Below are positions 1,231 through 16,501 of a stretch of 64,000 nucleotides of DNA, in pieces. Under the pieces are notes generated by a model that ran no database searches, was not told the DNA's origin, and saw only the letters and a program-made list of their open reading frames with translations. A program made the translations under genes and the position numbers. The stretch covers positions 526,501-590,500 of the forward strand of contig JADJLB010000010.1 of assembly GCA_016705685.1 (NCBI GenBank), written 5' to 3'. The DNA is from Propionivibrio sp. (GTDB lineage Bacteria > Pseudomonadota > Gammaproteobacteria > Burkholderiales > Rhodocyclaceae). Each line of letters opens with the position of its first letter. Positions within the stretch are counted from its first letter, which is position 1.

Positions 1231-1860
1231 TCAGAACCAACTGCGCGGGATGATCAATACATCGCCCGGCTTCATTTCGACATTGGCCGACACATCACCG
1301 CGCTTTATCAGATCGTTTACGCGAACACTGAATTGTTTGTTGCTTTCGGCGGTTCGTAGCAGGGTGGTTCCATTGCCATCAGCAAACTCGGTGATTCCGC
1401 CAACAGCGATCATGACGTCAAGCAGTGTCATTTGCTGTTTATAAGGTAGCGTTTGCGGCTTTGCCGCTTCTCCCACGACGCGTATTTGTTCACTATATGG
1501 CCCGACAAAGGCGGTGACTATGACGGTAACAACCGGGTCTCGTATGAATTTGCCAAGCGCCTCCTCGATATCTCGAGCCAGTTTCGTCGAGTCCTTCCCT
1601 ATCGCCGGCAAATCCTCAACCAGAGGCGCTGTAATCTTGCCATCGGGCCGCACCGGAACGGTCATCGAAAGCTCTGGGTTTCGCCAAACCACGATATTCA
1701 CCATATCGCCTGGCCCGATGATGTAATTGTAGTCAGGCGATGAAGCAGAATATGGCGCGGGGGGGTTGCTTGATGCACAACCGATAGCCACAGCGCCAAG
1801 CGTCCCGATGACCATCCAACGAAACGCGACGCCTAAGGCGTTATACAGGCTGACAAACAT
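1231..1860 (-). CDS. Polysaccharide export outer-membrane lipoprotein (Wza/XrtA-system type)
   Basis: Short Wza-like polysaccharide export protein of 209 residues. The N-terminus has a hydrophobic signal ending in a lipobox (VAIGC, Cys28), so the mature protein should be an outer-membrane-directed lipoprotein. The polysaccharide-export domain follows (YIIGPGDMVNIVVWRNPELS at about 45-65, then PVRPDGKITAPLVEDL), and after it a SLBB-like segment (IRVVGEAAKPQTLPY) that ends in MKPGDVLIIPRSWF. The length matches the compact form found in exosortase-A EPS loci rather than the roughly 380-residue Wza of E. coli. It is the upstream gene of the chain-length determinant. An SD-like AAAGGAGAA sits just before the ATG at 1860. 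Confidence 0.9.
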   Translation of the reverse strand: MFVSLYNALGVAFRWMVIGTLGAVAIGCASSNPPAPYSASSPDYNYIIGPGDMVNIVVWRNPELSMTVPVRPDGKITAPLVEDLPAIGKDSTKLARDIEEALGKFIRDPVVTVIVTAFVGPYSEQIRVVGEAAKPQTLPYKQQMTLLDVMIAVGGITEFADGNGTTLLRTAESNKQFSVRVNDLIKRGDVSANVEMKPGDVLIIPRSWF

Positions 1861-2314: not shown

Positions 2315-3547
2315 TCAGGCACCTTGCCGAAGCGCGTCGACTACATGCATTCGCGATGCCCGACGCGCAGGCATCACTGCGGCCAGGCAGGTGGCCACAA
2401 GACCAATGCCCCCGGCAGTCAACACTTCGAGCGGCATAATTCGGATGAAGGCGGTGTATCCGATATTGGCATTGGGGGGCGGCGGCATTGGAATCCCGAT
2501 GGCAGAAATGGTCCAGGCCGCGGCGCAGCCCAGCGACATGCCCAGTCCTGCGCCAATCAAACCAAGCATCATACTCTCGGTCATAATGAGTCGGAATACC
2601 GCTCCCGGCCTGTCGCCCAGGGCCAGCAAGGTACCAAACTCTCGCGTACGTTCAAACAGAGTCATGTTGACACTGTTTGCCACGCTTAACAGCACCATGA
2701 GCAAGATGATGAGGCGTAACACGCCGAACTGTGTCTCGTAGAGTTGCTGTGTCTTGTCGTAGAAGTCCGACAACGCTCTCCAGGAGGCAATTTCGTATTT
2801 GTCCGGACCAAGTTTGTGACGCAGGGAAGCCACCACTCGATCCGTATCCGTTGTGCGATTGAGCAACAGCACCATAACGTGAGCGGAATCATTGTCCATC
2901 AGGTTCCGCGCCGCCTTCAGTGAAATTCGGACGGCACGTGCGTCAAAATCCTTCGAAAAACTCTGAAACACCCCGATGACCTCAAAGTCCAAAGTATTGA
3001 CTGCACCCTGCGCCAGCGTGATGACCAGATTGACTCTATCGCCTGCCTTCAGCCCAAGCGATTTTGCCACGCCTTGCCCTAACACGATGCCGTCGCTATC
3101 GCCATCGGCAAGTGCGCGCCCTTCGATATAGCGCATATAGGTGCCGAGCTTGGCCTCCGCATCGGGTTCGACACCCTCGCCAACAATCCCGAGATCGCGC
3201 TTCCCGTTGTTGATCATTCCCGTAAAACCGAGACGTGACAACACGATCTGCACTCCAGGCTGATCCGCCAGTTCTTGTTTGAGCTTGTCCGGCTGATCGA
3301 TAAGAAACGAATCCGGGGATCGAGTACGTCCTTCGCGGTACCCCTGGCGGACTATCTGGATATGTCCGCTCTGCGAATGAATAACCGCCTCACCCAGTTG
3401 AATAAATATGTCCTGCACAAAACCGCCGGCCAGGATCAGACCGGCCACACCCAGGCTAATGGCCGCCAGAGTCGCTGCCGACCGGACCCGATGCCGGAAC
3501 ACGTTGCGCAGAGCAAACGCCAGACCTTGGGGTAGCTGTAAGTTCAT
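2315..3547 (-). CDS. ABC transporter permease, FtsX/LolC-E family (second of pair)
   Basis: Inner-membrane permease of the LolC/LolE/MacB type, 410 residues. The layout is typical: one transmembrane helix near residues 25-47, a large periplasmic domain to about 270, and three C-terminal helices (IILLMVLLSVANSVNMTLFERTRE carries the FtsX coupling motif RTREFGTLLALG). It is paralogous to the gene immediately upstream, including a shared IGIPMPPxP loop between the last helices, so the two probably form a heterodimer. Its ATG overlaps the upstream stop (ATGA), indicating translational coupling. No ATPase is adjacent; the nearest candidate partner is at 11723-12484. Substrate is unknown. Lipoprotein or lipid extraction is inferred from the family and from the LolA-like protein nearby. 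Confidence 0.85.
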   Translation of the reverse strand: MNLQLPQGLAFALRNVFRHRVRSAATLAAISLGVAGLILAGGFVQDIFIQLGEAVIHSQSGHIQIVRQGYREGRTRSPDSFLIDQPDKLKQELADQPGVQIVLSRLGFTGMINNGKRDLGIVGEGVEPDAEAKLGTYMRYIEGRALADGDSDGIVLGQGVAKSLGLKAGDRVNLVITLAQGAVNTLDFEVIGVFQSFSKDFDARAVRISLKAARNLMDNDSAHVMVLLLNRTTDTDRVVASLRHKLGPDKYEIASWRALSDFYDKTQQLYETQFGVLRLIILLMVLLSVANSVNMTLFERTREFGTLLALGDRPGAVFRLIMTESMMLGLIGAGLGMSLGCAAAWTISAIGIPMPPPPNANIGYTAFIRIMPLEVLTAGGIGLVATCLAAVMPARRASRMHVVDALRQGA

Positions 3548-4773
3548 TGGTTGTGCCGCAATGCGTCGACGATATTTAACCGACTGGCCTTCCAGGCCGG
3601 CAGAATGCTGGCGATCAAGGTCGTAACCAGGGCCAGGGTCAAAGCTTCACCGGCCAGAGAAGTGCTGATCAAAATCTGACCGATATAGCCCCTTGCCATT
3701 CCTGGCGCAGGCGGCATCGGAATTCCGATGGTGGAGATGATGGCCGCCAGAACATAACCCAGGATCAGCCCGACCAAGCCGCCGGCCACGCCGATCAAGA
3801 CGCCCTCAGCCAGAAACATACGCATCACAAATTTCCGTCGCTGCCCGATGGCCAGACTGGTTCCGATTTCTCGGGTTCGTTCAAGCACGCTCATCGTTTG
3901 CGTATTGGAAATGGTCAATACAATGATCAATCCGATAATAAACTTCACCACGCTGACCTGCTTCGAGAATAAAACGACCGTCTTATTGTAAAAATCGGAT
4001 AGTGCGTTCCACGGAATAACCTCAAAACTCTTTGCTGGCAATTCATCTCTAAGTTTCTCAGCGGTCTTCGTTGTTTGCTCGGTCCGTTCAAGCAGCGCTA
4101 CCCAGGTGGTCGCGCCGTCAACCCGCATCAACTTGCGCGCCACGGCAATTGGCAGGCGCAATGCGCTGTCATCATATTCCTTGACTATGGTGGCAAACGT
4201 CCCGGCAACCTTGACTTCAACCGCATTCGGACTGCCATTGGCCGCGGTTGCCAGCAACACAACGGTATCACCGGCTTTGACTTCAAGACTATGCGCCAAG
4301 CCTTCACCCAGCAACACGGCGGTTTCGGTCACATCGGAAAGATCGCTACCGGACACAAGGGTGATACGACTGCTGATCGGTCGCTCACGCACCGGATCAA
4401 TGCCTTCCCCGACAAAGGCAATGGTCACATCGCCGTGACTAACCAGCCCGCTGAAAGCCAGACGCGGGGTCAAGCTGACCATGCCTTCCGTCTTTTCAAT
4501 CATCTGCTGTTCGGACGATTGTGCCGGGAGCAGGAATGCATAGGGATCGGCAATCCCTTTTTCGTAGTAAGCCGGCCTTACAATCTGCAGATGGCCAAGT
4601 TGCGAATGAATAGTGATTTCACGCATGTCCTGGAAGATCCAGGCAATGAAACCCCCAGCCAATAAAAAAGCAACGATGCCCCCCGCCACCGTAAGTACTG
4701 CCACGGTGGTCCGATTGGCATTTCGCCGGAGATTACGGCCGGCAAGACGGAAATCTGCGGCTAAACCGAGCAT
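3544..4773 (-). CDS. ABC transporter permease, FtsX/LolC-E family (first of pair)
   Basis: 409-residue paralogue of the following permease, first gene of the pair. It has an N-terminal helix after a basic segment (AGRNLRRNANRTT), a periplasmic domain of about 220 residues, and C-terminal helices with the coupling motif RTREIGTSLAIGQ and the loop IGIPMPPAPGMARGY. The last residues (KASRLNIVDALRHNQ) match the conserved FtsX-family tail. The ATG at 4773 opens onto a 284-bp divergent intergenic region. Together with the next gene it could form a LolCE-like heterodimer, the ATPase being supplied in trans. The domain layout differs from ordinary MacB because no ATPase is fused. Confidence 0.85.
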   Translation of the reverse strand: MLGLAADFRLAGRNLRRNANRTTVAVLTVAGGIVAFLLAGGFIAWIFQDMREITIHSQLGHLQIVRPAYYEKGIADPYAFLLPAQSSEQQMIEKTEGMVSLTPRLAFSGLVSHGDVTIAFVGEGIDPVRERPISSRITLVSGSDLSDVTETAVLLGEGLAHSLEVKAGDTVVLLATAANGSPNAVEVKVAGTFATIVKEYDDSALRLPIAVARKLMRVDGATTWVALLERTEQTTKTAEKLRDELPAKSFEVIPWNALSDFYNKTVVLFSKQVSVVKFIIGLIIVLTISNTQTMSVLERTREIGTSLAIGQRRKFVMRMFLAEGVLIGVAGGLVGLILGYVLAAIISTIGIPMPPAPGMARGYIGQILISTSLAGEALTLALVTTLIASILPAWKASRLNIVDALRHNQ

Positions 4774-5057
4774 AGTCAGGTCGTTAACATTAATGAGCCA
4801 GTGTCAATGCATCCACTTCACGGTCGTGAGCTTAACCCAGCGCGGATGAAAAGAAACCATACGCAGGCAAAGAAAATACTTGACTTGGAAATTGAAATAC
4901 AATTGCCCAAAACACACAACACAATCAGGTAACAATAAGGTGCATATATTCTGCCGTACTGACGCTACATCATAGGCCCAGGCGCCTCGCCTGCAAGCCT
5001 GCTTTCCCATGAGATTCAGCGCCATCGTCTGTGGTAGCGCGAACGTGTGAGGCTAAC
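4774..5057. promoter_or_regulatory. Divergent control region between permease and biosynthetic operons
   Basis: 284-bp gap between two operons transcribed away from each other. Two sigma-54-like elements occur: one reading toward the permeases (minus strand, 4941-4956, CGGCAG-N5-ATGCA) and one reading toward the biosynthetic genes (plus strand, 4980-4995, AGGCGC-N5-CTGCA). Each matches 8 of the 11 bases of TGGCAC-N5-TTGCW by my count, with the essential GG and GC spaced by 10. They may be chance matches. They gain some weight from the perfect copy at 10071-10086. No convincing sigma-70 pair was found. Confidence 0.3.
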
Positions 5058-6140
5058 ATGAAAAGGTGTAAAAAGTGCTTGATTCCCGCGTCTGTGCCTG
5101 GGATATCGTTATCAAAAGATGACGTTTGCAACCTATGCCTGGACAAGAATACACTGCAGTCTGCCGCTGCCAAAGAGGAAGAAGCAAGGCAACGGTACGA
5201 AGCAGACTTCGAAAAGACCCTTGCAGAATGCAGAGGGCAAGGTGAATACGATTGCCTGGTACCCCTGAGTGGCGGGAAAGACAGCATTTACCTGCTGTAT
5301 CGTCTCAAAGTCGAATGCAAATTGAAAGTATTGGCCTTCACTGTGGATGTCAATATACCGGGTCTGGCCTGGGATAACATCAGACGCGCACTGGCCAAAC
5401 TGAACATCGACCACATCACTTATTCACCCTCGCACGAGTTCTACGACAAAACCTTCCGCTACCTGCTGCGCAACCAGGAAGAGCGCGGCGCGGTCTATAC
5501 CATCTCTTATGTCTATGCCCCGCTCTTTGAGGGCGATGCGATCAAACTGGCGATGGAAAAAAATATCCCGCTGGTTCTGGCGGGCTACTCACCCGGCCAA
5601 CCGGAACCCGAACGCATGCTTTACGAGTTTTCACGTCAGCTGATTTGTGAGACCGACTGGACGCCTCCCGAGATGGCCACTTGCGGCGAATTCGATGCGG
5701 AGGATCTGAGCCGGTTCTACAATCCGAGGAACTACCCGTCGGGGACGCAATTTCCACGCTACCTCGCCCCTTTTCACGCCTGGCCCTACAACCAGGAAAG
5801 CATCATGCGCAAAGTTGTCGAGCTTGGGCTGGTGGCCACCAGCAAACACGCCAATCCGATCCACAGCAACTACCCGATCAACTGGCTGCTGATGTATTCC
5901 GATCTTCGCGCCTTTGGCTATAACCCGTATGCCCCTGAATTTTCGGCACTCATCCGGAATGGCAAAGCCGATCTAAATTATTGGCGAATCATGGGGCCTC
6001 TGGTCGATTTTCTCATTCGCCGCCGGCTGGGACCAGGGAAGGAAGTGACGCGCAGTCTGAATTCGCTTGGTCTGACTGCCGACGATCTAGGCATCACAAA
6101 GCCGCGTGGCGCGTATGACCCGATTCCGGGACGCATGTGA
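5058..6140 (+). CDS. PP-loop ATPase, N-acetyl-sugar amidotransferase-like (WbpG/WbuX-like)
   Basis: Predicted cytoplasmic ATP pyrophosphatase of 360 residues that would adenylate a substrate and let ammonia or sulfur displace AMP. The PP-loop motif SGGKDS is at residues 71-76. Two CxxC pairs in the N-terminus (Cys4/Cys7 and Cys24/Cys27) form a likely zinc ribbon, as in N-acetyl-sugar amidotransferases of O-antigen and legionaminic or pseudaminic pathways. I chose the ATG at 5058 because GAGG lies 6 nt upstream; an in-frame GTG at 5031 has no such site. It begins a three-gene operon and its stop overlaps the next start. The true acceptor is unknown. The acyl ligase and reductase neighbours argue that it may not be a plain sugar. 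Confidence 0.7.
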   Translation: MKRCKKCLIPASVPGISLSKDDVCNLCLDKNTLQSAAAKEEEARQRYEADFEKTLAECRGQGEYDCLVPLSGGKDSIYLLYRLKVECKLKVLAFTVDVNIPGLAWDNIRRALAKLNIDHITYSPSHEFYDKTFRYLLRNQEERGAVYTISYVYAPLFEGDAIKLAMEKNIPLVLAGYSPGQPEPERMLYEFSRQLICETDWTPPEMATCGEFDAEDLSRFYNPRNYPSGTQFPRYLAPFHAWPYNQESIMRKVVELGLVATSKHANPIHSNYPINWLLMYSDLRAFGYNPYAPEFSALIRNGKADLNYWRIMGPLVDFLIRRRLGPGKEVTRSLNSLGLTADDLGITKPRGAYDPIPGRM

Positions 6141-7948
6141 CGTACCAGCCGATATCGGATGAGGTCATGGAATGCGCGGGCTGGACCGTTCCCGGCCTGT
6201 TGCATTTCAGGAGCAAACGCACGCCACAAGCCATCGCTCAATGGCAACTGGTGCCCAACGGACAATGGATTCAAGGCACCTGGAGCGAATACTGCGGTGC
6301 GGTCGCTTCCATAGCCTGTGGCTTCAGAAGACTGGGGCTGGTTGAAGGCGATCGGGTCGGCATCATGGCCGCCAGCAGCAAGGAATGGGATTTTGCCCAA
6401 CTGGGCATTCTGGCTGCCGGTGGCATCGCTATCGGCCTTGACCCTCACGGACTCGACGAACACACACAGGAGATTGCCCATCGCTGTGAGTTTGCCGGCG
6501 TCGTACTGACCAACCCCGCGCTTCTCGATAAACTCGGCGACGAGGCGCGCCGACGCCTGCGCTACGTCGTCAGCATTGAGCCGACCACGCAAACGGGTAT
6601 AGCTACGCTGGACTCGATGATTGCTGAATTGGCCGATGAGGCTCGTTGGAATCGGGCACAACCGGATAGCACGGCAACCATTATTTTCACCTCCGGCACG
6701 ACGGGCACACCCAAAGGGATCGAATACAGCCACCGCCAGATGTGCCTGGCCACCACTGCGATACTTTCAGCCTTTCCCGACCTTCGAGACGGCAGCCGAC
6801 TGGCTTGCTGGCTGCCCCTCTCCAACCTGTTCCAGCGCATGATCAACCTCTGCGCCATCAGCCGGGGCGCGCAAACCTTCTATGTCGCCGATCCACGGGA
6901 AATCATGCGCTACGCACCGCAGATCGCACCGCATGTGTTCATTGGCGTTCCACGGTTCTATGAAAAACTCTATTCCGGCATTCAGGAGGCATTGGGGAAA
7001 AAGCCGGCCTGGCAACAATGGTTGGCACAATGGGCACTCCGCATTGGCGACCGACACGCGACGGCCTTACGCGCCGGCTTGCCGCCAGGACTCGAGTTGA
7101 CGTTAAAACTTGCCGTGGCGGAACGCCTTGTTCTGAGACAATTGCGCGGCATTCTGGGTCCCAATCTGCAATTCATGATCAGCGGATCGGCGCCGATGCC
7201 GGTATGGCTGCTCGAACATTTCCACGCCATTGGCCTGCCTGTTCTCGAAGCCTACGGGCTGAGTGAAAATATAATCCCGGTGTCCTTGAACCGGCCAGGA
7301 CATTTTCGTTTCGGCTCTGTCGGCAACCCGCTTCCGGGATGCGAAGTCCGACTTGCCGAAGACAGTGAGCTGCTCGTACGCGGCCCGGGTGTATTCCATG
7401 GCTATTTTGGCGACGACAACGCCGAGACCCGCATTGACAATGATGGATTTCTGACGAGCGGTGACTTTGCACATATCGATGACGAAGGGTTTATTACCCT
7501 GATCGGTCGAAAATCCGAAATTTTCAAAACATCGACCGGGCGCCGCGTTGCCCCGTCGAGCATTGAAAGCCAACTGCGACAGCTAGATCAGGTCGAATAC
7601 GCCGTCGTGTTTGGTGCTGGACGTACTCAGCCCACCGCACTGCTGGCGGTCGGCAAAGCACTGTGGCAGGAGGATGAACACCGTTATTGTCAGCAGTTAC
7701 GCGCAGAAGCGGCGCGCGTCCTCGCGCCGTTACCCACTTACTTGCGGCCGGCGGCACTCGCCTTGACGACACAGATGTTTACACTGGCCGGCGGAGAATT
7801 GACGGCCAACCTTAAAATGCGCAGGCGCAATATCGAGCAAAATTTTTCATTCGTCCTGGATGAACTCAACATGCACATCGACAAGGCCGCCGGTGCTCCC
7901 TTCGAAACGCTAAGCAAGGATGGCCTCGTGCTATTTCTCAGCCTATGA
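6137..7948 (+). CDS. AMP-forming acyl-CoA/acyl ligase (long-chain FadD-like)
   Basis: ANL-superfamily adenylating enzyme of about 603 residues that activates a carboxylic acid as acyl-AMP and passes it to CoA or a carrier thiol. The P-loop TSGTTGTPKG is at about 185-194, the A5 region is YGLSENIIP, the hinge region is SGDFAHIDDEGFITLIGRKSE, and a candidate catalytic Lys lies in NLKMRRR near the C-terminus. The overall layout is that of long-chain acyl-CoA synthetases. The GTG at 6137 overlaps the upstream TGA (GTGA), which supports coupling. An ATG ten codons later is the alternative start, with GAGG only 2 nt before it. Its stop overlaps the reductase start. Substrate is not predictable by eye. 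Confidence 0.85.
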   Translation: MTYQPISDEVMECAGWTVPGLLHFRSKRTPQAIAQWQLVPNGQWIQGTWSEYCGAVASIACGFRRLGLVEGDRVGIMAASSKEWDFAQLGILAAGGIAIGLDPHGLDEHTQEIAHRCEFAGVVLTNPALLDKLGDEARRRLRYVVSIEPTTQTGIATLDSMIAELADEARWNRAQPDSTATIIFTSGTTGTPKGIEYSHRQMCLATTAILSAFPDLRDGSRLACWLPLSNLFQRMINLCAISRGAQTFYVADPREIMRYAPQIAPHVFIGVPRFYEKLYSGIQEALGKKPAWQQWLAQWALRIGDRHATALRAGLPPGLELTLKLAVAERLVLRQLRGILGPNLQFMISGSAPMPVWLLEHFHAIGLPVLEAYGLSENIIPVSLNRPGHFRFGSVGNPLPGCEVRLAEDSELLVRGPGVFHGYFGDDNAETRIDNDGFLTSGDFAHIDDEGFITLIGRKSEIFKTSTGRRVAPSSIESQLRQLDQVEYAVVFGAGRTQPTALLAVGKALWQEDEHRYCQQLRAEAARVLAPLPTYLRPAALALTTQMFTLAGGELTANLKMRRRNIEQNFSFVLDELNMHIDKAAGAPFETLSKDGLVLFLSL

Positions 7949-9060
7949 AAAATTACTTTGTCACCGGCGCTACCGGGGCGATTGGAAGCGCACTGATACC
8001 CATCCTGCTGCAAGACGCGGGAACCCATATCCGTTTGCTTTTACGAGCAAATTCACCCGAAAACCTGGCGTCGAGACTGGAAGCACTGTTCAATTTTTGG
8101 CAGATACCTGTCGATGACGTAAGCACCCGAAGCCGGGTCAAGGCCTTGCGTGGCGATGTTACCTTGCCCCGATTTGGGCTTGACGATGTGGACTATCAAG
8201 CCATCTGTACGGACTGCACGCATATCGTTCACTCGGCGGGGAATGTGCGGATGAATCTGCCGATCGAGAAGGCAAGACATTCTTCGGTAGACTCGGCACG
8301 CAACATCATCGAGCTGGCCCACCATTGCCCCAAGCTGCTCAAAGTCGAATTCGTCAGCACCGTGGGGGTTGGCGGGCGCACCAATGGCGCCGTTCCCGAG
8401 GAATGGATTCTGACGCCGCGCGGCTTCCACAACACCTATGAACAGGCCAAGGCGGAGGCCGAAGACACGATTCGTGCTGAACTGGAGCGCGGTCTGGCGC
8501 TGACCGTTCATCGGCCCAGCATGGTCGTCGGCGACACGATCAGCGGACGCATCATCCATTTCCAGGTCTTCTATCATTTGTGCGAATTTCTTTCCGGAAG
8601 ACGCACCCTGGGATTGGCCCCCGGTTTTGGCGTGGCACGGCTCGATATCGTGCCGGCCGACTATGTAGCCAAGATCATCGCCTGGTCGAGTTCGACCCAT
8701 ATCACGTCCGGCCAAATCCTGCACTCCTGCTCCGGACCGGATTTGGCACTGCCTCTGGAACCGTTGCGTGAACAAGTGAGGAAGGCTTTTGCCGCCGCCG
8801 GCCGTAAGTTACCGCCAGTCATCAACCTGCCGACCAGCGTCTTTCGGGCGCTGCTCACCGGAGTCAGCGTTTTCATGCCTGGCGAGACGCGTCGGGCGAT
8901 CAAAACCCTGCCTGTGTTCCTCGATTATCTGGCCACCGAACAGACCTTCGCCAACAGCAGTACGCAATCCTTGCTCGCCGATTTCGGCCTTGGCGTACCC
9001 TCCCCTTCAAGCTATCTGGACAAGGTATTGAGCTACTACCTGGAAGACTCCGGTCGTTAA
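7945..9060 (+). CDS. Thioester-reductase-like NAD(P)-dependent SDR (NAD_binding_4)
   Basis: Extended short-chain dehydrogenase of 371 residues, similar to the reductase domains that release acyl thioesters as aldehydes or alcohols and to fatty acyl-CoA reductases. The nucleotide-binding motif GATGAIGS is at 8-15. The catalytic set is visible as Ser138 (EFVSTVGV) and Tyr165-x3-Lys169 (TYEQAK). The start ATG overlaps the ligase stop (ATGA), so activation and reduction of one acyl group is a natural inference. A GGR-epimerase-like activity cannot be excluded from motifs alone. The gene converges on the PEP-CTERM gene, with a strong terminator between them. Confidence 0.8.
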   Translation: MKNYFVTGATGAIGSALIPILLQDAGTHIRLLLRANSPENLASRLEALFNFWQIPVDDVSTRSRVKALRGDVTLPRFGLDDVDYQAICTDCTHIVHSAGNVRMNLPIEKARHSSVDSARNIIELAHHCPKLLKVEFVSTVGVGGRTNGAVPEEWILTPRGFHNTYEQAKAEAEDTIRAELERGLALTVHRPSMVVGDTISGRIIHFQVFYHLCEFLSGRRTLGLAPGFGVARLDIVPADYVAKIIAWSSSTHITSGQILHSCSGPDLALPLEPLREQVRKAFAAAGRKLPPVINLPTSVFRALLTGVSVFMPGETRRAIKTLPVFLDYLATEQTFANSSTQSLLADFGLGVPSPSSYLDKVLSYYLEDSGR

Positions 9061-9108
9061 GCGGCCCTGATCTGGCCCGAGCAACTTAGGGTTGCCAGTT
9101 TTTCAATC

Positions 9109-9138
9109 AAAAAAAACGGCCTCACGAAGAGGCCGTTT
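9109..9138 (-). terminator. Intrinsic terminator of the PEP-CTERM gene
   Basis: Perfect 10-bp stem (AAACGGCCTC, 9114-9123, with GAGGCCGTTT, 9129-9138) and a 5-nt loop. On the minus strand it is followed by a run of eight T (9116 to 9109). It lies 23 bp past the stop of the minus-strand PEP-CTERM gene and may also damp read-through from the convergent reductase gene. Confidence 0.9.
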
Positions 9139-9161
9139 CGTATCGCTGCTTGAGCTAAGTC

Positions 9162-10013
9162 TTATTTACGGCGACGAATCCGACCGAAGCCAAGACCTGC
9201 CAAGCCGAGGCCCAAGAGCGCCAAGCTGCCGGGTTCCGGAACGGGGGTCGCACGGATATCGAAAGACAATTTCACCGTCGTAGACAGATTTTCGGGGGTT
9301 ACGAAACCGATACAACCCGGACCCTGTCCAACTGCTGCACAGGCCTCAGGCCCGACACCTGTCAAACCGGCAAGATCAAGGTCGAGGAAATAGTTGAAAC
9401 CATCAACGGTGGCCAAGAACAAATTCGTCAGCGGACTTGATCCCGCCGGATCGAGCACAAAAATGTCCGGGCACGGAATACCGAGAACCAAGCCATCTGC
9501 ACAAGTTCCAGCAATATTTGGCGTTTCCTTGAACTTAATGGCGAAATGGCCAGTTATGGGTCCAAATGGGATCCCCGCAATAGGCGCAGTCGATTCAAGC
9601 ATCAACGAACCGACCAACAAAGCATTTGTCAACGTTTCGCCACTAATCGGGAAGTTGTTATGCGTCAAACTGACATCAAATACGAACGGGCCATTTGTAA
9701 CTACAGAACCGCTGGTCCGGCCGATACCGTTGTTACCGTTCAAGGTCAACGAGCTAAGGCCAAAGCCAGCATCAACGCCCCACGACAGCTTGGTGGGATC
9801 ACCCGATGACGGATTAGCATCCAACGAGCCTATGGTGAAATTGGTAAAGCCATTGTTGAGCGAACCGGTAACGCTTGCAGGCGCCGAAGAACCAAAGCCG
9901 AACAGGTTTTCGTAATTCCAATCGGTGATCATCGTGCCAGCATTGGCATTGCCACCGGCAAGGACGGCAACGGGCACGGCCATCGCGAGTATTAATTTAG
10001 TGAACTTTCTCAT
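9162..10013 (-). CDS. THxN-family PEP-CTERM exported protein
   Basis: Exported protein of 283 residues with a Sec signal peptide (FTKLILAMAVPVAVLAGGNANA) and a C-terminal PEP-CTERM sorting tail: VPEPGS, a hydrophobic helix, then the basic end RIRRRK. Such tails are processed by exosortase (XrtA), which ties the gene to the EPS locus at the left edge. The mature part is Gly/Asn/Thr-rich, and it contains SLTHNNFPI, the motif that names the THxN subfamily. I prefer the ATG at 10013 over one four codons upstream because GGAGAG lies 5 nt before it. Transcription very likely starts from the sigma-54 promoter at 10071-10086. Function in the cell surface or floc matrix is inferred. Confidence 0.92.
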   Translation of the reverse strand: MRKFTKLILAMAVPVAVLAGGNANAGTMITDWNYENLFGFGSSAPASVTGSLNNGFTNFTIGSLDANPSSGDPTKLSWGVDAGFGLSSLTLNGNNGIGRTSGSVVTNGPFVFDVSLTHNNFPISGETLTNALLVGSLMLESTAPIAGIPFGPITGHFAIKFKETPNIAGTCADGLVLGIPCPDIFVLDPAGSSPLTNLFLATVDGFNYFLDLDLAGLTGVGPEACAAVGQGPGCIGFVTPENLSTTVKLSFDIRATPVPEPGSLALLGLGLAGLGFGRIRRRK

Positions 10014-10070
10014 GTTTCTCTCCATTGTTGGTGGCTAATGCATTAAGTTTAATCACTGCGGGTTTATACT

Positions 10071-10086
10071 AGCAATCAGCGTGCCA
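10071..10086 (-). promoter_or_regulatory. Consensus sigma-54 (-24/-12) promoter of the PEP-CTERM gene
   Basis: On the minus strand the bases read TGGCACGCTGATTGCT, matching all 11 fixed positions of TGGCAC-N5-TTGCW. With -12 at 10072, transcription would start near 10060, giving a leader of about 47 nt before the ATG at 10013. PEP-CTERM systems are known to carry the PrsK/PrsR two-component pair, PrsR being a sigma-54 activator. Neither gene is in this window. Confidence 0.85.
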
Positions 10087-10137
10087 GATATATTTTGTTC
10101 CATTAACTCAATTGGTTACGAATTCATGCCTGATTCA

Positions 10138-10178
10138 AAAGCAGACGAGTGTAAAAAATTCTGACACTCGTCTGCTTT
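10138..10178 (-). terminator. Terminator-like hairpin after the beta-barrel gene
   Basis: A 15-bp perfect stem (10138-10152 with 10164-10178) around an 11-nt A/T-rich loop, 15 bp beyond the stop of the minus-strand beta-barrel gene. The following T tract on the minus strand is short (TTTTG), so termination may be partial. The hairpin also separates this operon from the sigma-54 promoter of the next gene. Confidence 0.7.
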
Positions 10179-10192
10179 ATGTCAGATTGGCA

Positions 10193-11707
10193 TCAAAAAC
10201 TGTAGCGCACTTCCGAATACACGCGATCACGCCCACTGTAGGTTCCAAACAGACCGAGTGGCGGTCCTTTGAAAACATCGGCACCGACGGCCAGACGCCA
10301 GTTTCGCTCGAAACTCCACATTACCCTGGGGCGGAAGAGCCAGTCCGTACGATTCAAACTGGCGATCCAGGTGGCTTGTGCTTCCAAAGCGTCTGTGAAT
10401 TTGTGGTTCAACAGCAGGCTATATCCATTTTCGTGCTTATCTGAAATCAGGTCGGGGTCGTGATCGAAAAAAGTGCGTTGGTAAACCTGCATATTGAGGC
10501 GCGTATCGGCCGGCAAGGTGAAATCCAGCCCTAAGGCCCAATCGAGCGTGTTTTGTCGGGCCAAGCCATTGCCGTCGGCTTCCCGGACGACGCTGAACTG
10601 TCGTCCGCGGGTGTAAACCATCTCGCCTTTCAGCACAAACGATCCGAAATCCTTGGCCAGCGTGCTGCCAAACTGATTGATACGGTCGTGGCGTGCCTGG
10701 TAAATGTAGGTTCCCGGCACGCTCACGGCATCGCGGTAAAACGTTGGATTGATGTCCATGCTGCTGTAAGCAAACCCGGAAATATCCCAACCGCTCTTAA
10801 GCGTTGAGAGACGCAAGCCATAATTGGAGTTCGACAGATTGCGCGGGGGACGGACTTCATTCCGGTATTGAACGCTGACGCCCTCAGGCTGCAGCTGATA
10901 GGGGAAAAACTCGGCACCCGGTTTGCCGATCTGATCGTAACTGGCGACGGGGATCCAGAGCAATTCAGCGTGATAATCGTCCTTGAAGTACTCTGCCCGC
11001 GCCGCCCACTGGGTGATCCGCATCGTGTCGAATTCGGGAAGAATGAATTCCCGCATGTCTCTGGCCGAAACAACGTCGGCAAAGAAAAGGCCGACCATTT
11101 CCCCCCAGACGACGTGCTGCTTGCCGAGACGAAAATCCCAGTCACCGGCGCTGATATCCATATAGTTCTCGCGCAGGGTCAAATTGAACCGCTGATCTCT
11201 GGCCACCGCGCCTGGGTAAAAATCGTAAAGGCTATGGACGGCATCGTAGTCCATCCGGGCGCCGAGTTTCCATTTGATACCACCGCCTAAATTCCCCTGA
11301 GAACTAAGATCGGCACGAGTCAGCATCTTTGACCAATGCACCGGGCTTTCGGTCGTACGAGCCATTTCGAGCTGCAGAAATCCCTTTATTCCACCGAAAG
11401 ACGAGGGCGCCGCCTTCTCGGGCTTCAAGCCTGGTTTGGGAAGAGCAGGCTCGTCATCGCCGAACAAAGCGTCCCGGCTTCCCGATGCAGATTCCTCAGT
11501 GGAATTGGCGGCCAAAAGATATGTCGGGTTGGTTGGCCAAGCTTCGATTTTTCGCGGTAACACTAACCCTAACCCGGCTTGAGGGTCCCCATCGTTGGCC
11601 GGGGTCAGCACATTCTCTGCCCAAACGGGTATCGATCCCGATGCCAAGGCCAGCCCGGCGATCAGCTTGAAGCCGATAATCCGAATTGATTTATTCTTTT
11701 GGCTCAT
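10193..11707 (-). CDS. Outer-membrane beta-barrel protein (DUF1302-like)
   Basis: 504-residue predicted outer-membrane barrel. A signal peptide (cleavage near VWA-EN, residue 30) is followed by a Pro/Ala-rich low-complexity stretch to about 105, then alternating amphipathic strands rich in aromatics to the end. The protein terminates in Phe (VYSEVRYSF), the usual barrel-assembly signal. Segments such as RLGKQHVVWGE resemble DUF1302-type porins that pair with LolA-fold proteins in envelope export clusters. I chose the ATG at 11707 because AAAAGG lies 6 nt upstream; an in-frame TTG at 11722 directly abuts the ATPase stop. It is co-transcribed with the ATPase, which suggests it is the outer-membrane end of the same route. 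Confidence 0.75.
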   Translation of the reverse strand: MSQKNKSIRIIGFKLIAGLALASGSIPVWAENVLTPANDGDPQAGLGLVLPRKIEAWPTNPTYLLAANSTEESASGSRDALFGDDEPALPKPGLKPEKAAPSSFGGIKGFLQLEMARTTESPVHWSKMLTRADLSSQGNLGGGIKWKLGARMDYDAVHSLYDFYPGAVARDQRFNLTLRENYMDISAGDWDFRLGKQHVVWGEMVGLFFADVVSARDMREFILPEFDTMRITQWAARAEYFKDDYHAELLWIPVASYDQIGKPGAEFFPYQLQPEGVSVQYRNEVRPPRNLSNSNYGLRLSTLKSGWDISGFAYSSMDINPTFYRDAVSVPGTYIYQARHDRINQFGSTLAKDFGSFVLKGEMVYTRGRQFSVVREADGNGLARQNTLDWALGLDFTLPADTRLNMQVYQRTFFDHDPDLISDKHENGYSLLLNHKFTDALEAQATWIASLNRTDWLFRPRVMWSFERNWRLAVGADVFKGPPLGLFGTYSGRDRVYSEVRYSF

Positions 11708-11722
11708 ACCTAACCTTTTCAA

Positions 11723-12484
11723 CTAGCTGGCCTGTTGTTCTGCCGCAACAGCTTCGAGCGTACGACGCTGACGTGCAAGCGACCATTTTTTGGTTTCGGA
11801 ACGTACGCCCAACGCGGAAATTTCTCCGTCATCGACGCGAATCAGACGGTCTGCCTTGGCAATCACGCGTTTGTCATGTGTGGAAAAAATAAACGTCGTA
11901 TTGAAGGCACGGTTGATCTGTTTCATCAGGTTCAGGATCTCCTCGCCGGTCTTGTGGTCGAGGTTAGCGGTTGGCTCATCGGCCAGAACAATCGAAGGAA
12001 GGATCGCGAGCGCGCGTGCGATGGCAACGCGCTGGCGCTGACCGCCACTCAACTGGTTTGGGCGATGATCGGAAAATTTTGACAAGCCCACGATGTCGAG
12101 GAAATAGTCAACGCGCTTTTGTCGTTCTTCCTTCGACACATCATTCCGTTGTAACAGCGGATACTCAACGTTTTCAGCGGCAGACAACACAGGCAGCAGG
12201 TTGAAGGTCTGAAAAATAAAACCGATGGTTCTGCTGCGCAAATCGGCCAGTTGATCTTGCGTCCGGCCGCTCACGTCCTGTTCGTTTATGAATATCTTTC
12301 CGCTTGTCGGCGTATCGATGCAACCGATAAGGTTGAGCAGGGTCGTCTTGCCGCTGCCGGAAGGGCCAGCAATCGCCAGAAAAACCCCAGGGTCAAAGGA
12401 CAGGGTGATGTCTTTGAGGGCTTGGACTTTCTGATCACCGAGCTGATAATCCTTATACACGTGTTCAATGCGGACAACGCTCAT
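11723..12484 (-). CDS. ABC transporter ATPase, LolD/MacB family
   Basis: Stand-alone ABC ATPase of about 253 residues. Walker A GPSGSGKT is at 40-47, the LolD/MacB-type Q-loop region is IGFIFQTFNLLPVLSAAENVEYPL, the signature is LSGGQRQR, and Walker B continues into the D-loop (IVLADEPTANLD). It is the obvious energiser for the FtsX-type permeases at 2315-4773, although 7 kb and another operon intervene. The C-terminal extension (TKKWSLARQRRTLEAVAAEQQAS) is longer than in LolD. Start is uncertain: ATG at 12484 with a weak SD, or an in-frame TTG at 12502 directly after AAAGG. It is divergent from the LolA-like gene with 54 bp between starts, and followed at once by the beta-barrel gene. Confidence 0.88.
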   Translation of the reverse strand: MSVVRIEHVYKDYQLGDQKVQALKDITLSFDPGVFLAIAGPSGSGKTTLLNLIGCIDTPTSGKIFINEQDVSGRTQDQLADLRSRTIGFIFQTFNLLPVLSAAENVEYPLLQRNDVSKEERQKRVDYFLDIVGLSKFSDHRPNQLSGGQRQRVAIARALAILPSIVLADEPTANLDHKTGEEILNLMKQINRAFNTTFIFSTHDKRVIAKADRLIRVDDGEISALGVRSETKKWSLARQRRTLEAVAAEQQAS

Positions 12485-12538
12485 CGGCAGGCTTTCTGCC
12501 AACCTTTTGGTGGGTCAGCACAATTGGGGGAAAAAACT

Positions 12539-13336
12539 ATGGAAATCATGACGATCCGGCACCCATGTGTCAAGGCGACTGCAATACTTATGCTCTTCGT
12601 ACTCTCGGTGTTCATCGTACCATGCCATGCGGCCGAGACTACGCCGCCAGCACAGGCCGACGATTCAATCGCCCGTACCATTGTCGAAAAAGCCGACTTG
12701 GTTCGATTTCCGTCTGAAGGATTCCAGGTTGATATCGCGATCAACAGCTCGCAAGCCGGTCAGGCTGCGGAATCACGCAAGTACCGGGTGCTTTCCAAAG
12801 GCAACAGCAACACGGTGGTGATGGTCACCGAACCGGCTTCCGAACGCGGGCAGATCATTCTCATGAAAGGACGTGATTTATGGGTTTTCATGCCCGATGT
12901 ATCCCAACCCATACGCATCGCCCTGTCCCAGCGACTCACCGGGCAGGTAGCCAACGGCGATCTGGCGAGGGCCAACTTTTCTGCGGACTACAATCCGAAA
13001 CTCTTGCGTACCGATAGCATCGACAATGAAAACTATCACGTCCTTGATCTGATCGCCGTTGACCGCAGCGTTACATACCAGCGCGTGGTTTATTGGGTTC
13101 GGCAAAGAGACTTTTGGCCCTACAAAGCCGAGTTCTACTCACTTTCCAACCGCTTGCTCAAAACCTGTAAATACGAGAATTACCAAACCATGGAAGGAAG
13201 GCTCCGTCCAACACGTCTGGTCATGGAGGATGCGCTCAAGAGTGGGGAGCAGTCTGTTCTTGAATACGGCAGCATGAAGCTGCGGGATCTGCCGGACAAG
13301 ATATTCACCAAGGATTACCTGAAAAAACTTGATTAG
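12539..13336 (+). CDS. LolA-like outer-membrane lipoprotein-sorting protein (COG2834 type)
   Basis: 265-residue periplasmic protein with an N-terminal signal peptide ending near PCHA-AE (residue 31). The mature part has the LolA-fold features of COG2834: VDIAINSS, VMVTEPASERGQIILMKGRDLWVFMPD, and a late block RVVYWVRQRDFWPYKAEFYSLSNRLLKTCKYENY. Such proteins bind acyl chains and ferry lipids or lipoproteins across the periplasm. The start ATG at 12539 is set by GGGGG 8 nt upstream; a longer upstream reading frame overlaps the ATPase and is not credible. It overlaps the phosphatase gene tail-to-tail by 4 bp. With the ATPase, permeases and barrel it completes a Lol-like set. Confidence 0.85.
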   Translation: MEIMTIRHPCVKATAILMLFVLSVFIVPCHAAETTPPAQADDSIARTIVEKADLVRFPSEGFQVDIAINSSQAGQAAESRKYRVLSKGNSNTVVMVTEPASERGQIILMKGRDLWVFMPDVSQPIRIALSQRLTGQVANGDLARANFSADYNPKLLRTDSIDNENYHVLDLIAVDRSVTYQRVVYWVRQRDFWPYKAEFYSLSNRLLKTCKYENYQTMEGRLRPTRLVMEDALKSGEQSVLEYGSMKLRDLPDKIFTKDYLKKLD

Positions 13337-13830: not shown

Positions 13831-14352
13831 TTTTTTGAATTCATTGCGATAGTTCGCTGATTTTCAGGCGTACCTAGCGCCTGGGCCGTGAGGCAGCAGC
13901 AAACTCAGTAATCGGTACGCGCTCAATCGAAACAATAGCAGATTGACAGCGGAACAAACGCTTGCCCGTTTTGTCGCGATCCCATGTCGGCGAAATTTAC
14001 AATCTTTTTGAATTCGCTTGGTAAACCGATTTCAAAGAATAACAATATCATAAGGTTGCGAATTTGGTATGAATCATGCTTTAACCCCAGTCGCAGCTCC
14101 TATCTGGTTGATCCGGGCCGCGCTACTAACAGCGGCCTGATTTACCGTGTGGGATTTCAGTGGATGTTTCATTCGAGTAGAGTGCACGGTTTACTCTTTT
14201 TCCTTGTTGAGAACTTAGAGCAAAGGAACGAGCAAGGTGGGTGGCTTTACGCAATTGACACCCGGTGACCGCAAGAGTTTGGCGCGTACAGGATCGGTAC
14301 GCGTGTCAGCCGCTCGTTCGGCTTGAATTACAATAGCATAGGCACAGAAAAC
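13831..14352. other. Intergenic region between phosphatase and HDOD kinase
   Basis: 522 bp, moderately AT-rich, between divergent genes. A 94-codon plus-strand reading frame (13984-14268) has no recognisable domain, no good SD and a composition that does not look like protein, so I leave it out. A sigma-54-like sequence (TGGTAT-N5-ATGCT, 14065-14080, 8 of 11 bases) faces the kinase gene but would give a leader of about 260 nt. Confidence 0.4.
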
Positions 14353-16488
14353 ATGCTTCAAGCCGATCCCGATATTCGCCAGCGTTTGCAGGTCGCCCGA
14401 CTGCCCATCTTGCCGCAGATACTGCTGCAACTGATCCAGCACTGCCAATCTGATGAGATCGTTGTGCCTGCCTTGGCCGAACTGATCGCCAAGGATCCGG
14501 GCATGACCAGCAAGATTCTCGGCTTGGCTCACAGTTCCGCCTATCATCGTGCAGGTCGAAAGGCAGGTCTGGAGCAATCGCTGACTGCCCTCGGCACCGA
14601 CACGATCAAGTCCTTGGTGGTCAGCGAATCGGTCTTTCAGGTCTTCAACGATGCTTCTTATGCGAACAGCGTCGATCTTCGCCTCTTCTGGCAGCATTCA
14701 CTGGAAACCGCGTTGTTGGCACGGGGCATCGCCGAAAAGATGCGCTATCCCCACCAAGAAGAGGCTTACCTTGCCGGCCTGCTGCATGACATAGGGCGTT
14801 TGGCGCTTGTCACGGCTTCACCGCAGGAGTACACCCGCAGCTTTCTTGACCAGGATGACGAACTCCTGTGCGCTTTTGAGCAAAGCACACTACACGTTTC
14901 ACACCCCCAAGTCGGTTCATGGTTGATTGAAAACTGGGATCTCGATTCATTCATGGCGGACAGCGTCCTCTATCACCATGAATCAATGGCCCGCCTTGAA
15001 TCCGCCCACCCTCTCGTACGCATCGTTCGCCTGGCGCATCGGCTAAGTTGCCACAATACGGATGATCTGGATATCAACGAAGCCGGGGGTCTGTATGGCA
15101 TTACCAGCGCCGACCTTGGGAAAATTTCCAATCAGGCCAGATCGCAGGTGAAAACATTCGCCGAGCTTCTCGGAATCGACCTGGCCGCCGCCCCACAGGC
15201 GTCGGCCGTTACCGCGAACATTCCGGGCGAAACGGTTCAGGAAGAAGTAAGACAGCAGTTGTCCAACGAAGTGCGTAACCTGATGCTCGCTTCCGAGGCT
15301 GGTCGATCATTCTCCCGATTGCAGGGGGAAGCCGGCTTGCTCGAATCGGTGACTCGTTCGGCACGCATGCTTTTCAACTTTGAAGATGTCATTGTTCTGT
15401 TAATGAACGGCGCGGGCAAGGCGCTCATAGGCATCCCGGTGGGAGAGCACAAACAGCGCCTGACAGAATTTACCATCGCGCTCGGCAGCGGCGGATTGAT
15501 TGCCGAGGTCGCCCTGCAACGCCGGCTGGCTTTTGCCGGATCGGACGGAAATCCACTGGGCATAGCTGAGGAACAACTCTTACGTGTACTGGGCTGTGAG
15601 TCGCTCGTCTGTGTGCCCCTGATATCCGGGCAACGCTGCCTGGGCGTGATGGTTGGTGGCGTGGCGCCGTGGCAAGCCGCCGTGTTGCAGCGCCGCGAAC
15701 GTTTTCTCAAGTCTTTTGGCGAACAGGCTGCGATAGCGCTCGAATCAGCCCTGGGCGAACGCGGGGAAGCCTCGCGTCGTGTAGCCAGTGTCGCTGAAGA
15801 ATACAGGGAATCCTCGCGCAGAGTCGCGCATGAAGTGAACAACCCCCTTTCGATAATCAAGAACTACCTGAGCATTCTTGGCGGCAAACTGGACAAGCAC
15901 GAACCGGTGGTCAGCGAGCTTTCAATACTCAATGAAGAGCTGGACCGCGTTGGACATATCATCAAAGGATTGGCCGACCTGAAACCGACTTTGCGTGACG
16001 CAGGCGCCGAAGTTAACCGCGTCGTGCGCGATATCGTCCGCCTGTTCCGTGATACCGAGTTTGTTCCCGCATCGGTGAAAATCGTCGCCGAGACCCAGGA
16101 TTTGCCGACGGAAATTGAAGGCAGTGCCGACAAGCTCAAACAGATACTGGTCAATCTCGTCAAGAACGCCATCGAAGCCTTGCCCACCGGAGGAGAAATC
16201 CATATTGCGAATAACGGCCATGTCAACCGTGATGGACAGTTGTACATCGAAGTCAGTGTCAGGGACAGCGGGCCCGGAATACCATCCGAGATACTGGAAA
16301 ACCTATTTTCGCCCGTACAAAGCACTAAAGGTACTGGACATCAGGGCCTAGGTCTGAGTATTGTGCACAACCTGGTAAAAAAGGTTCAGGGATTAATCAC
16401 TTGTCGAAGCAGTAGCAGGGGGACAGCATTCGAGATACTGCTCCCGATTCGTAAACGCAACTACCAGGTTGTACCTGGGGAGAACTAA
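14353..16488 (+). CDS. HDOD-GAF-histidine kinase hybrid
   Basis: 711-residue cytoplasmic signalling protein. An HDOD domain occupies about 10-280 (it keeps LLHDIGRLAL), a GAF domain about 325-475, and a kinase core follows with H-box RRVAHEVNNPLSIIKNYLS, N-box NLVKNAIEALPTGGE and G-boxes DSGPGIP and GHQGLGLSI. No transmembrane segment is visible. The phospho-accepting His is present, so kinase activity is plausible. The next gene, 13 bp downstream, encodes a REC-PAS-GGDEF-EAL protein that is the likely partner. The ATG at 14353 is preferred to an in-frame TTG at 14323; neither has a strong SD. What the HDOD and GAF parts sense cannot be told. Confidence 0.85.
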   Translation: MLQADPDIRQRLQVARLPILPQILLQLIQHCQSDEIVVPALAELIAKDPGMTSKILGLAHSSAYHRAGRKAGLEQSLTALGTDTIKSLVVSESVFQVFNDASYANSVDLRLFWQHSLETALLARGIAEKMRYPHQEEAYLAGLLHDIGRLALVTASPQEYTRSFLDQDDELLCAFEQSTLHVSHPQVGSWLIENWDLDSFMADSVLYHHESMARLESAHPLVRIVRLAHRLSCHNTDDLDINEAGGLYGITSADLGKISNQARSQVKTFAELLGIDLAAAPQASAVTANIPGETVQEEVRQQLSNEVRNLMLASEAGRSFSRLQGEAGLLESVTRSARMLFNFEDVIVLLMNGAGKALIGIPVGEHKQRLTEFTIALGSGGLIAEVALQRRLAFAGSDGNPLGIAEEQLLRVLGCESLVCVPLISGQRCLGVMVGGVAPWQAAVLQRRERFLKSFGEQAAIALESALGERGEASRRVASVAEEYRESSRRVAHEVNNPLSIIKNYLSILGGKLDKHEPVVSELSILNEELDRVGHIIKGLADLKPTLRDAGAEVNRVVRDIVRLFRDTEFVPASVKIVAETQDLPTEIEGSADKLKQILVNLVKNAIEALPTGGEIHIANNGHVNRDGQLYIEVSVRDSGPGIPSEILENLFSPVQSTKGTGHQGLGLSIVHNLVKKVQGLITCRSSSRGTAFEILLPIRKRNYQVVPGEN

Positions 16489-16501
16489 GTTCGAGGTGAC
16501 G

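Follow-up and report, generated by a model that had tools for sequence, protein, structure and literature searches.

A set of five genes in a 64,000-nucleotide stretch of a Propionivibrio sp. genome (hereafter the window; C10:526501-590500 in a draft assembly of 3.46 Mb) is a real and recurring system, namely a two-permease variant of the Lol-type ATP-binding cassette (ABC) route that lacks the Hook of LolC and is associated with exosortase A. The set comprises two FtsX-type permeases (permA and permB), a LolD-like ATPase, a LolA-like periplasmic protein and a DUF1302 outer-membrane barrel. That these five genes belong to one system is very probable, and the set stands out beyond chance because the same parts recur jointly across genomes. 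Its gene neighbours suggest the export of fatty amino-acid products rather than of ordinary lipoproteins. Whether the set is, cargo included, a dedicated envelope-spanning export route for an N-acylated product is evenly balanced in our judgement.

The four kinds of part described in the initial annotation are all encoded by intact open reading frames (ORFs), and their domains were confirmed. Both permeases contain MacB_PCD and FtsX domains above the Pfam cut-offs, and both carry the loop IGIPMPPxP already pointed out in that annotation, which is mostly kept across 21 aligned permB proteins. The named closest relatives of permB come chiefly from Rhodocyclaceae and other Betaproteobacteria. The ATPase and barrel genes are neighbours reading in the same direction, and the LolA gene is divergent from the ATPase gene; by mechanical call, the ATPase ORF spans 11723-12502, with an internal Met at 12484. 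The LolA-like protein matches PF17131 with 179.3 bits (gathering score 30, E 8e-53) and, in a sequence search of the PDB, 3BUU (NE2245) with an E value of 2.2e-102, an entry deposited as an uncharacterised LolA-superfamily protein. The barrel passes the DUF1302 family PF06980 with 34.5 bits (gathering score 23.2), and no sequence relatives of it were found in the PDB. Its model is porin-like, with a predicted local distance difference test (pLDDT) score of 77 and unreliable residues 1-83 and 190-212.

The joint recurrence of the parts was assessed in a family sample of 101 genomes, in which a high-scoring class was defined by more than 330 bits for permB, at least 300 for LolA and more than 370 for the barrel. 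Such homologues are present in 36, 35 and 36 genomes, respectively, and 34 of the 37 genomes with any of the three have all of them (permB with LolA, Fisher p 2e-23, kinship ignored), in agreement with the earlier proposal that these parts make up one system. The three mismatching genomes are 52% complete (G093), 82% complete (G035) and divided into 1240 contigs (G085). The class is separated by a wide gap from the next-best matches of LolA (133 bits) and of the barrel (80 bits, from a gene fragment located where a contig ends). Below the permB class come chiefly its own permA paralogues (about 230-307 bits), followed by more distant permeases (below 190 bits).

At the level of loci, 81 non-redundant permB loci were retained (86 minus five duplicates), with two loci each from G024 and G036. 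PermB, ATPase, LolA and barrel share one fetched stretch in 40 of the 81, and at least one of the latter three is present in 48. The set can also be split into complementary halves. Indeed, the other three parts are missing from the permease stretch in 18 of the 36 permB-positive family genomes, in some of them through contig ends, and 16 of these 18 genomes carry ATPase, LolA and barrel together elsewhere; G035 has the barrel only and G093 none. Permeases regularly accompanied by a different ATPase were not seen in the loci examined: among the 36 loci without a close ATPase, several of them short, 35 hold no ATPase-like ORF above 100 bits, and the exception (L208) contains a 244-bit ATPase piece beside LolA and barrel. 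Nor were the LolA-like protein and the barrel seen to lead a life apart from the permeases, as ATPase, LolA and barrel recur with them. Outside Betaproteobacteria, consecutive genes for ATPase, permease, LolA and barrel are found in a Deltaproteobacteria metagenome-assembled genome (MAG; L171); in a MAG of Bacteriovoracaceae (L206), the run consists of LolA, barrel, ATPase and then two permeases. The barrel matches DUF1302 in both. Even the permease pair is not always adjacent: in G205, permB (C1:434821) and permA (C1:1316883) lie 0.9 Mb apart.

By membership the set is not a Lol system, because its permeases and ATPase fall below the Lol cut-offs, the Hook is absent, and canonical LolC/E-type permease, LolD and LolB genes are present; it is Lol-like in outline. 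Against TIGR02212 (lolCE, cut-off 362.45), permA reaches 100.5 bits and permB 113.6, and the ATPase reaches 221.2 bits against TIGR02211 (LolD, cut-off 307.75), whereas the canonical LolC/E-type permease of the same genome, LolF-like by our reading, and its canonical LolD pass with 525.4 and 318.2 bits. LolB gives a single match in the genome, on contig C1, and none within the set. With these canonical genes elsewhere in the genome, the set is a second route, as the initial annotation had supposed. The permB model (mean pLDDT 88.9) finds its best structural matches in LolCDE chains with lipoprotein bound, reaching a template modelling (TM) score of 0.73 to 9rld_E and 9rld_C, ahead of MacB.

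In LolC, the Hook recruits LolA. At the place in the alignment that we take to be that of the LolC Hook hairpin (PDB titles do name the Hook), permA, permB, 13 permA homologues, 14 permB homologues and 6 more distant relatives have a hairpin 5 residues shorter than that of the canonical permease, and most of these shortened hairpins contain a G-x-x-N-x-x-E/D core. A short hairpin is also present at the Hook position of the permB model. With the Hook absent, recruitment of the carrier must differ, if the carrier is recruited there at all. The description of the set as complete and Lol-like is thus an overstatement, its permeases being devoid of the element to which LolA is recruited in LolC.

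Compared with the LolCDE/LolF-LolA-LolB pathway, the permease fold, a LolD-like ATPase and a LolA-fold periplasmic carrier are common to both, whereas the set has lower LolCE and LolD scores, Hookless permeases and a DUF1302 barrel rather than LolB, and coexists with the canonical genes. It shares the MacB periplasmic core and FtsX domains with MacAB-TolC, from which it differs by its LolA-fold carrier and by an ATPase that is a separate protein; neither MacA nor TolC was recognised among the ten window proteins scanned, to which this search was confined.

The gene for exosortase A (XrtA), which scores over the TIGR03109 cut-off, precedes the window start by about 8.5 kb (C10:517267-518043). 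In an order sample of 369 genomes, permB (E 1e-60 or better) occurs in 40 genomes and XrtA (over the cut-off) in 90. XrtA is found in 38 of the 40 permB genomes (p 2e-24, relatedness uncorrected), the exceptions being a gene fragment in G105 and one weaker match in G157, whereas permB is missing from 52 of the 90 XrtA genomes. The corresponding figures in the family sample are 34 of 36 permB genomes with XrtA and 9 of 43 XrtA genomes without permB. The set therefore needs XrtA or shares its niche, and XrtA can do without the set. Among candidate markers of set-bearing genomes, no single gene within about 10 kb of XrtA was convincing (lowest p 0.042 without correction, in a comparison of 21 loci with 29), and the number of PEP-CTERM genes was dropped, since the counts that reach 22 candidates are lower bounds (at least 22). 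A regulon based on sigma-54 was likewise rejected, with 37 matches at up to two mismatches against 39.7 expected. The one exact copy of the sigma-54 consensus TGGCAC-N5-TTGCW (window positions 10071-10086, minus strand) precedes only the PEP-CTERM gene 9162-10025, by about 46 bp.

The evidence on cargo comes from the neighbours of the set, which were clustered over 107 loci. After the core genes, the commonest neighbour is an acyltransferase of about 268 residues (38 of 107 loci), two representatives of which belong to TIGR03694, the PEP-CTERM/exosortase system-associated acyltransferases (266 and 251 bits, cut-off 112). Three representatives of a second family, present in 17 of the 107 loci, were identified by Pfam as FeeM, N-acyl amino acid synthase. 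FeeM makes N-acyl amino acids from acyl-acyl carrier protein, and TIGR03694 proteins reportedly make N-acyl amino acids as well. Profiles (E 1e-10) built from the two neighbour families themselves, so that the counts are not independent of the discovery, gave 40 of the 81 permB loci with a synthase gene no more than 300 bp from a core gene, and 51 with one within 5 kb. When permease loci and LolA-half loci are pooled, a synthase lies within 300 bp in 51 of 103. In these 103 loci, it stands at permA in 21 cases (18 TIGR03694-like, co-directed, 3'), at LolA in 21 cases (15 TIGR03694-like, co-directed, 3') and at the barrel in 13. The variety of attachment points suggests several separate joining events, as opposed to a single arrangement passed on by descent. 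Both halves have a synthase within 200 bp in 5 of the 18 split genomes compared (G057, G067, G060, G009 and G026). In L043 and L044, whose permB is most similar to that of the window, a FeeM gene is observed about 50 bp from permA. As a control, a synthase (E 1e-5) was found in none of the 51 single-permease loci of the distant permease class (53 loci); as for its two-permease loci, L206 has FeeM about 2 kb from the set and L180 has none.

The synthases are closer to the permeases than to exosortase A. In 14 of the 19 order genomes that have both permB and TIGR03694 (G019, G080, G105, G138, G154, G162, G201, G205, G223, G237, G253, G396, G435 and G449), the synthase lies within 10 kb of a permease gene; in the other 5 the two are on different contigs, and in none of the 19 is XrtA within 10 kb of the TIGR03694 gene. 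This distance is also not attained in any of the 13 XrtA genomes with TIGR03694 and without permB. A FeeM copy is located within 10 kb of the permeases in 5 of 9 permB genomes tested, and four of these five (G114, G127, G128 and G301) have XrtA on another contig or more than 50 kb away. The linkage of synthases with PEP-CTERM/exosortase systems, reported by Craig, Cherry and Brady (2011), is confirmed in citing papers. The present arrangement resembles it in that synthase genes are near PEP-CTERM/exosortase genes, and differs in that the synthase stands closer to the Lol-like set than to XrtA.

Single-permease cassettes of the kind annotated as ABC/"outer membrane lipoprotein-sorting protein" in Vibrio and on Rahnella and Enterobacter plasmids are related to the set by an ATPase, a related permease, a PF17131-like LolA and a protein of about 415-460 residues in one gene run, and the permeases of 4 such loci are also Hookless. 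They differ from it by their one permease, about 30-36% identical to permB, by a further protein without Pfam match (two tested) and by the absence of synthases from all 51 loci, as given above. These 51 loci (among L039-L042, L080-L099 and L181-L211) come from Vibrio, Photobacterium, Enterobacter and others and consist of an ATPase, one permease and usually LolA_like, the 415-460-residue protein being seen in three annotated plasmid loci. The cassettes on Rahnella and Enterobacter plasmids lie amid ketoacyl synthase and malonyltransferase genes.

We infer from these observations how the proteins would form a complex, in which order and direction the cargo would be handed over, and that it would be of an N-acylated kind. 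A synthase would make an N-acyl amino acid that would partition into the inner membrane. In the inner membrane, permA, permB and the ATPase would constitute a type VII ABC transporter (LolCDE/MacB class), lifting the acylated molecule from the outer leaflet and passing it to the LolA-fold carrier. The latter would shield the acyl chain and bring the cargo to the outer membrane. There the DUF1302 barrel, which may replace LolB, would take it over and release it to or through the surface, into the exosortase/exopolysaccharide (EPS) layer. In some genomes, an acyl ligase, a thioester reductase, a PP-loop enzyme or a glycosyltransferase may serve as tailoring enzymes.

Several observations weigh against an export route for N-acyl amino acids. 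Without a Hook, recruitment of LolA by permA and permB is unexplained, and the structural matches of the barrel model are weak and mostly to general porins (query TM about 0.4-0.5). A synthase is lacking within 5 kb in 30 of the 81 loci, and L171, like L180, has none. The window genome itself has no TIGR03694 match, no synthase is encoded in the window, and the two FeeM genes of the genome are on another contig, C2. TIGR03694 is only mildly enriched with permB among XrtA genomes (18 of 38 against 13 of 52, p 0.043), and it lies 14-16 kb from XrtA in three of the 13 genomes without permB (G120, G209 and G391), the remaining ten having it farther off on the XrtA contig (four) or on different contigs (six). 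Of eight XrtA genomes lacking permB, one has FeeM no more than 10 kb from XrtA, and three (G116, G161 and G155) have it no more than 20 kb away. FeeM presence fails as a marker of the set, since all 17 genomes tested, with or without the set, have a match, weak in G136. Finally, 48 of the 81 loci have a PEP-CTERM-like ORF, recognised by a crude pattern, no more than 3 kb from a core gene, so that a protein cargo is possible. No remnant of a synthase was detected in the 454-bp gap between permA and the EPS export gene (no hidden Markov model match up to E 1, ORFs of at least 50 residues). The FeeM-type genes of the strain (G000), at C2:487263-487742 and C2:181897-182343 in open frames of 494 and 235 residues, are candidate cargo enzymes.

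The linkage of PEP-CTERM-like ORFs to the core genes leaves room for a protein cargo, or for both cargoes. In this alternative, which we consider rather unlikely, a PEP-CTERM protein would be cut and joined to a lipid by exosortase A and carried to the outer membrane in a Lol-like manner. It would account for the near-constant presence of XrtA in permB genomes and for the PEP-CTERM gene adjoining the barrel in the window. When whole stretches are considered, 55 of the 81 loci contain PEP-CTERM-like ORFs, against 3 of 45 distant-permease loci, a weak control in that many hosts of the distant class may have no exosortase. The alternative also fits the proposal of Haft (2006), in which proteins are transferred to a periplasmic nucleophile and then reach or cross the outer membrane; that paper identified neither the acceptor nor the means of this last passage. 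A general route for such proteins is contradicted by the 52 of 90 XrtA genomes that lack permB, several of which have many PEP-CTERM proteins even by counts that are lower bounds; moreover, L206 and L171 carry the set with no XrtA match in their stretches, the only DNA searched in these cases.

A second lipoprotein route, in which a special class of triacylated lipoproteins would be carried with the barrel in LolB's place, is improbable. The fold of the permease, nearest to lipoprotein-bound LolCDE, and the LolA fold of the carrier speak for it, whereas the lack of a Hook and the presence of canonical LolC/E-type permease, LolD and LolB do not, and the fixed neighbours found are synthases and PEP-CTERM genes (no search for lipoprotein genes was made). 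We give an equally small chance to the export or insertion of a glycolipid or acylated EPS precursor from the EPS locus. Either half of the set, permeases or ATPase-LolA-barrel, may adjoin an EPS export gene and often does so, the alginate exporter AlgE has the top query TM (0.49-0.50) among the 50 matches listed for the barrel model, and a glycosyltransferase family recurs in 22 of the 107 loci; however, no gene around XrtA strongly separates genomes with and without the set, as reported above, and a Wza-type export protein is already available at the locus. It is a long shot that exosortase A uses the N-acyl amino acid itself, or a compound derived from it, as the lipid joined to some PEP-CTERM proteins, with the Hookless set carrying both lipid-tailed proteins and free lipid through the barrel; synthase, sorting enzyme and set would then make up a single pathway ending at the surface.

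Between the permease and barrel genes, the window encodes an acyl ligase, a thioester reductase and a PP-loop enzyme (Table 1), which the initial annotation had regarded as possible makers of the cargo. As general cargo makers they were rejected, because a close relative of the reductase is found in just 6 of the 101 family genomes. All six are permB-positive (p 0.0015), and in five of them the relative lies inside the fetched permease stretch; at E 0.001, 30 of the 101 have any match. The trio occurs together with a synthase in L051, L137 and L138 and is thus not a simple replacement of the synthase. In some strains, it may tailor the exported lipid. The glycosyltransferase family mentioned above (L068:14537-15730 among others) is of macrolide type, with weak matches below the cut-offs; in 8 of its 22 loci it is separated from core genes by about 100 bp or less, and it is another possible tailoring enzyme. 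Beyond the LolA gene, an HDOD/histidine-kinase-like protein and then a PAS-GGDEF-EAL-like protein, both recognised by eye, occupy window positions 14323-18715, and a relative of the latter is present in 6 of the 107 loci.

Table 1. Genes of the Hookless set and its surroundings, in window coordinates
Feature	Position	Strand	Remarks
XrtA/PEP-CTERM system exopolysaccharide export protein	1231..1860	-	TIGR03027 over cut-off
permA	2315..3547	-	FtsX/MacB_PCD-type permease, 410 aa, without LolC Hook
permB	3544..4773	-	FtsX/MacB_PCD-type permease, 409 aa, without LolC Hook; model nearest LolE/LolC chains of LolCDE
PP-loop enzyme	5031..6140	+	WbuX-like, below cut-off; optional accessory
AMP-binding acyl ligase	6137..7948	+	Optional accessory
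Thioester-reductase-like NAD-binding protein	7945..9060	+	Optional accessory
THxN family PEP-CTERM protein	9162..10025	-	Predicted exosortase substrate; adjoins barrel
DUF1302 outer-membrane barrel	10193..11707	-	PF06980; signal-peptide-like N-terminus (by eye)
LolD-like ABC ATPase	11723..12484	-	ABC_tran; best NCBIfam match LolD
LolA_like (PF17131) periplasmic carrier	12539..13336	+	Close relative with solved structure, NE2245 (PDB 3BUU)

By what route cells release N-acyl amino acids and the products of exosortases is, to our knowledge, an open question. No description of a system with this composition was found in the openly licensed literature, and these transport genes are not described in the accessible portions of papers on exosortases and synthases (PMC1569441, PMC11980579, PMC4897644, PMC7293339, PMC11072679, PMC11511702 and PMC11631085). 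A synthase mutant of Methylomonas LW13 is reported to be impaired in the formation of its polysaccharide band, and in growth too, and the lipid may on this account be relevant to the slime layer.

With the route defined as five genes, export can be tested by simple deletions. A likely role is also assigned to 3BUU, and the Lol-type transporter indicated here has to meet its carrier without a Hook. More broadly, many environmental bacteria with exosortase-linked slime possess a second, modified Lol-like machine.

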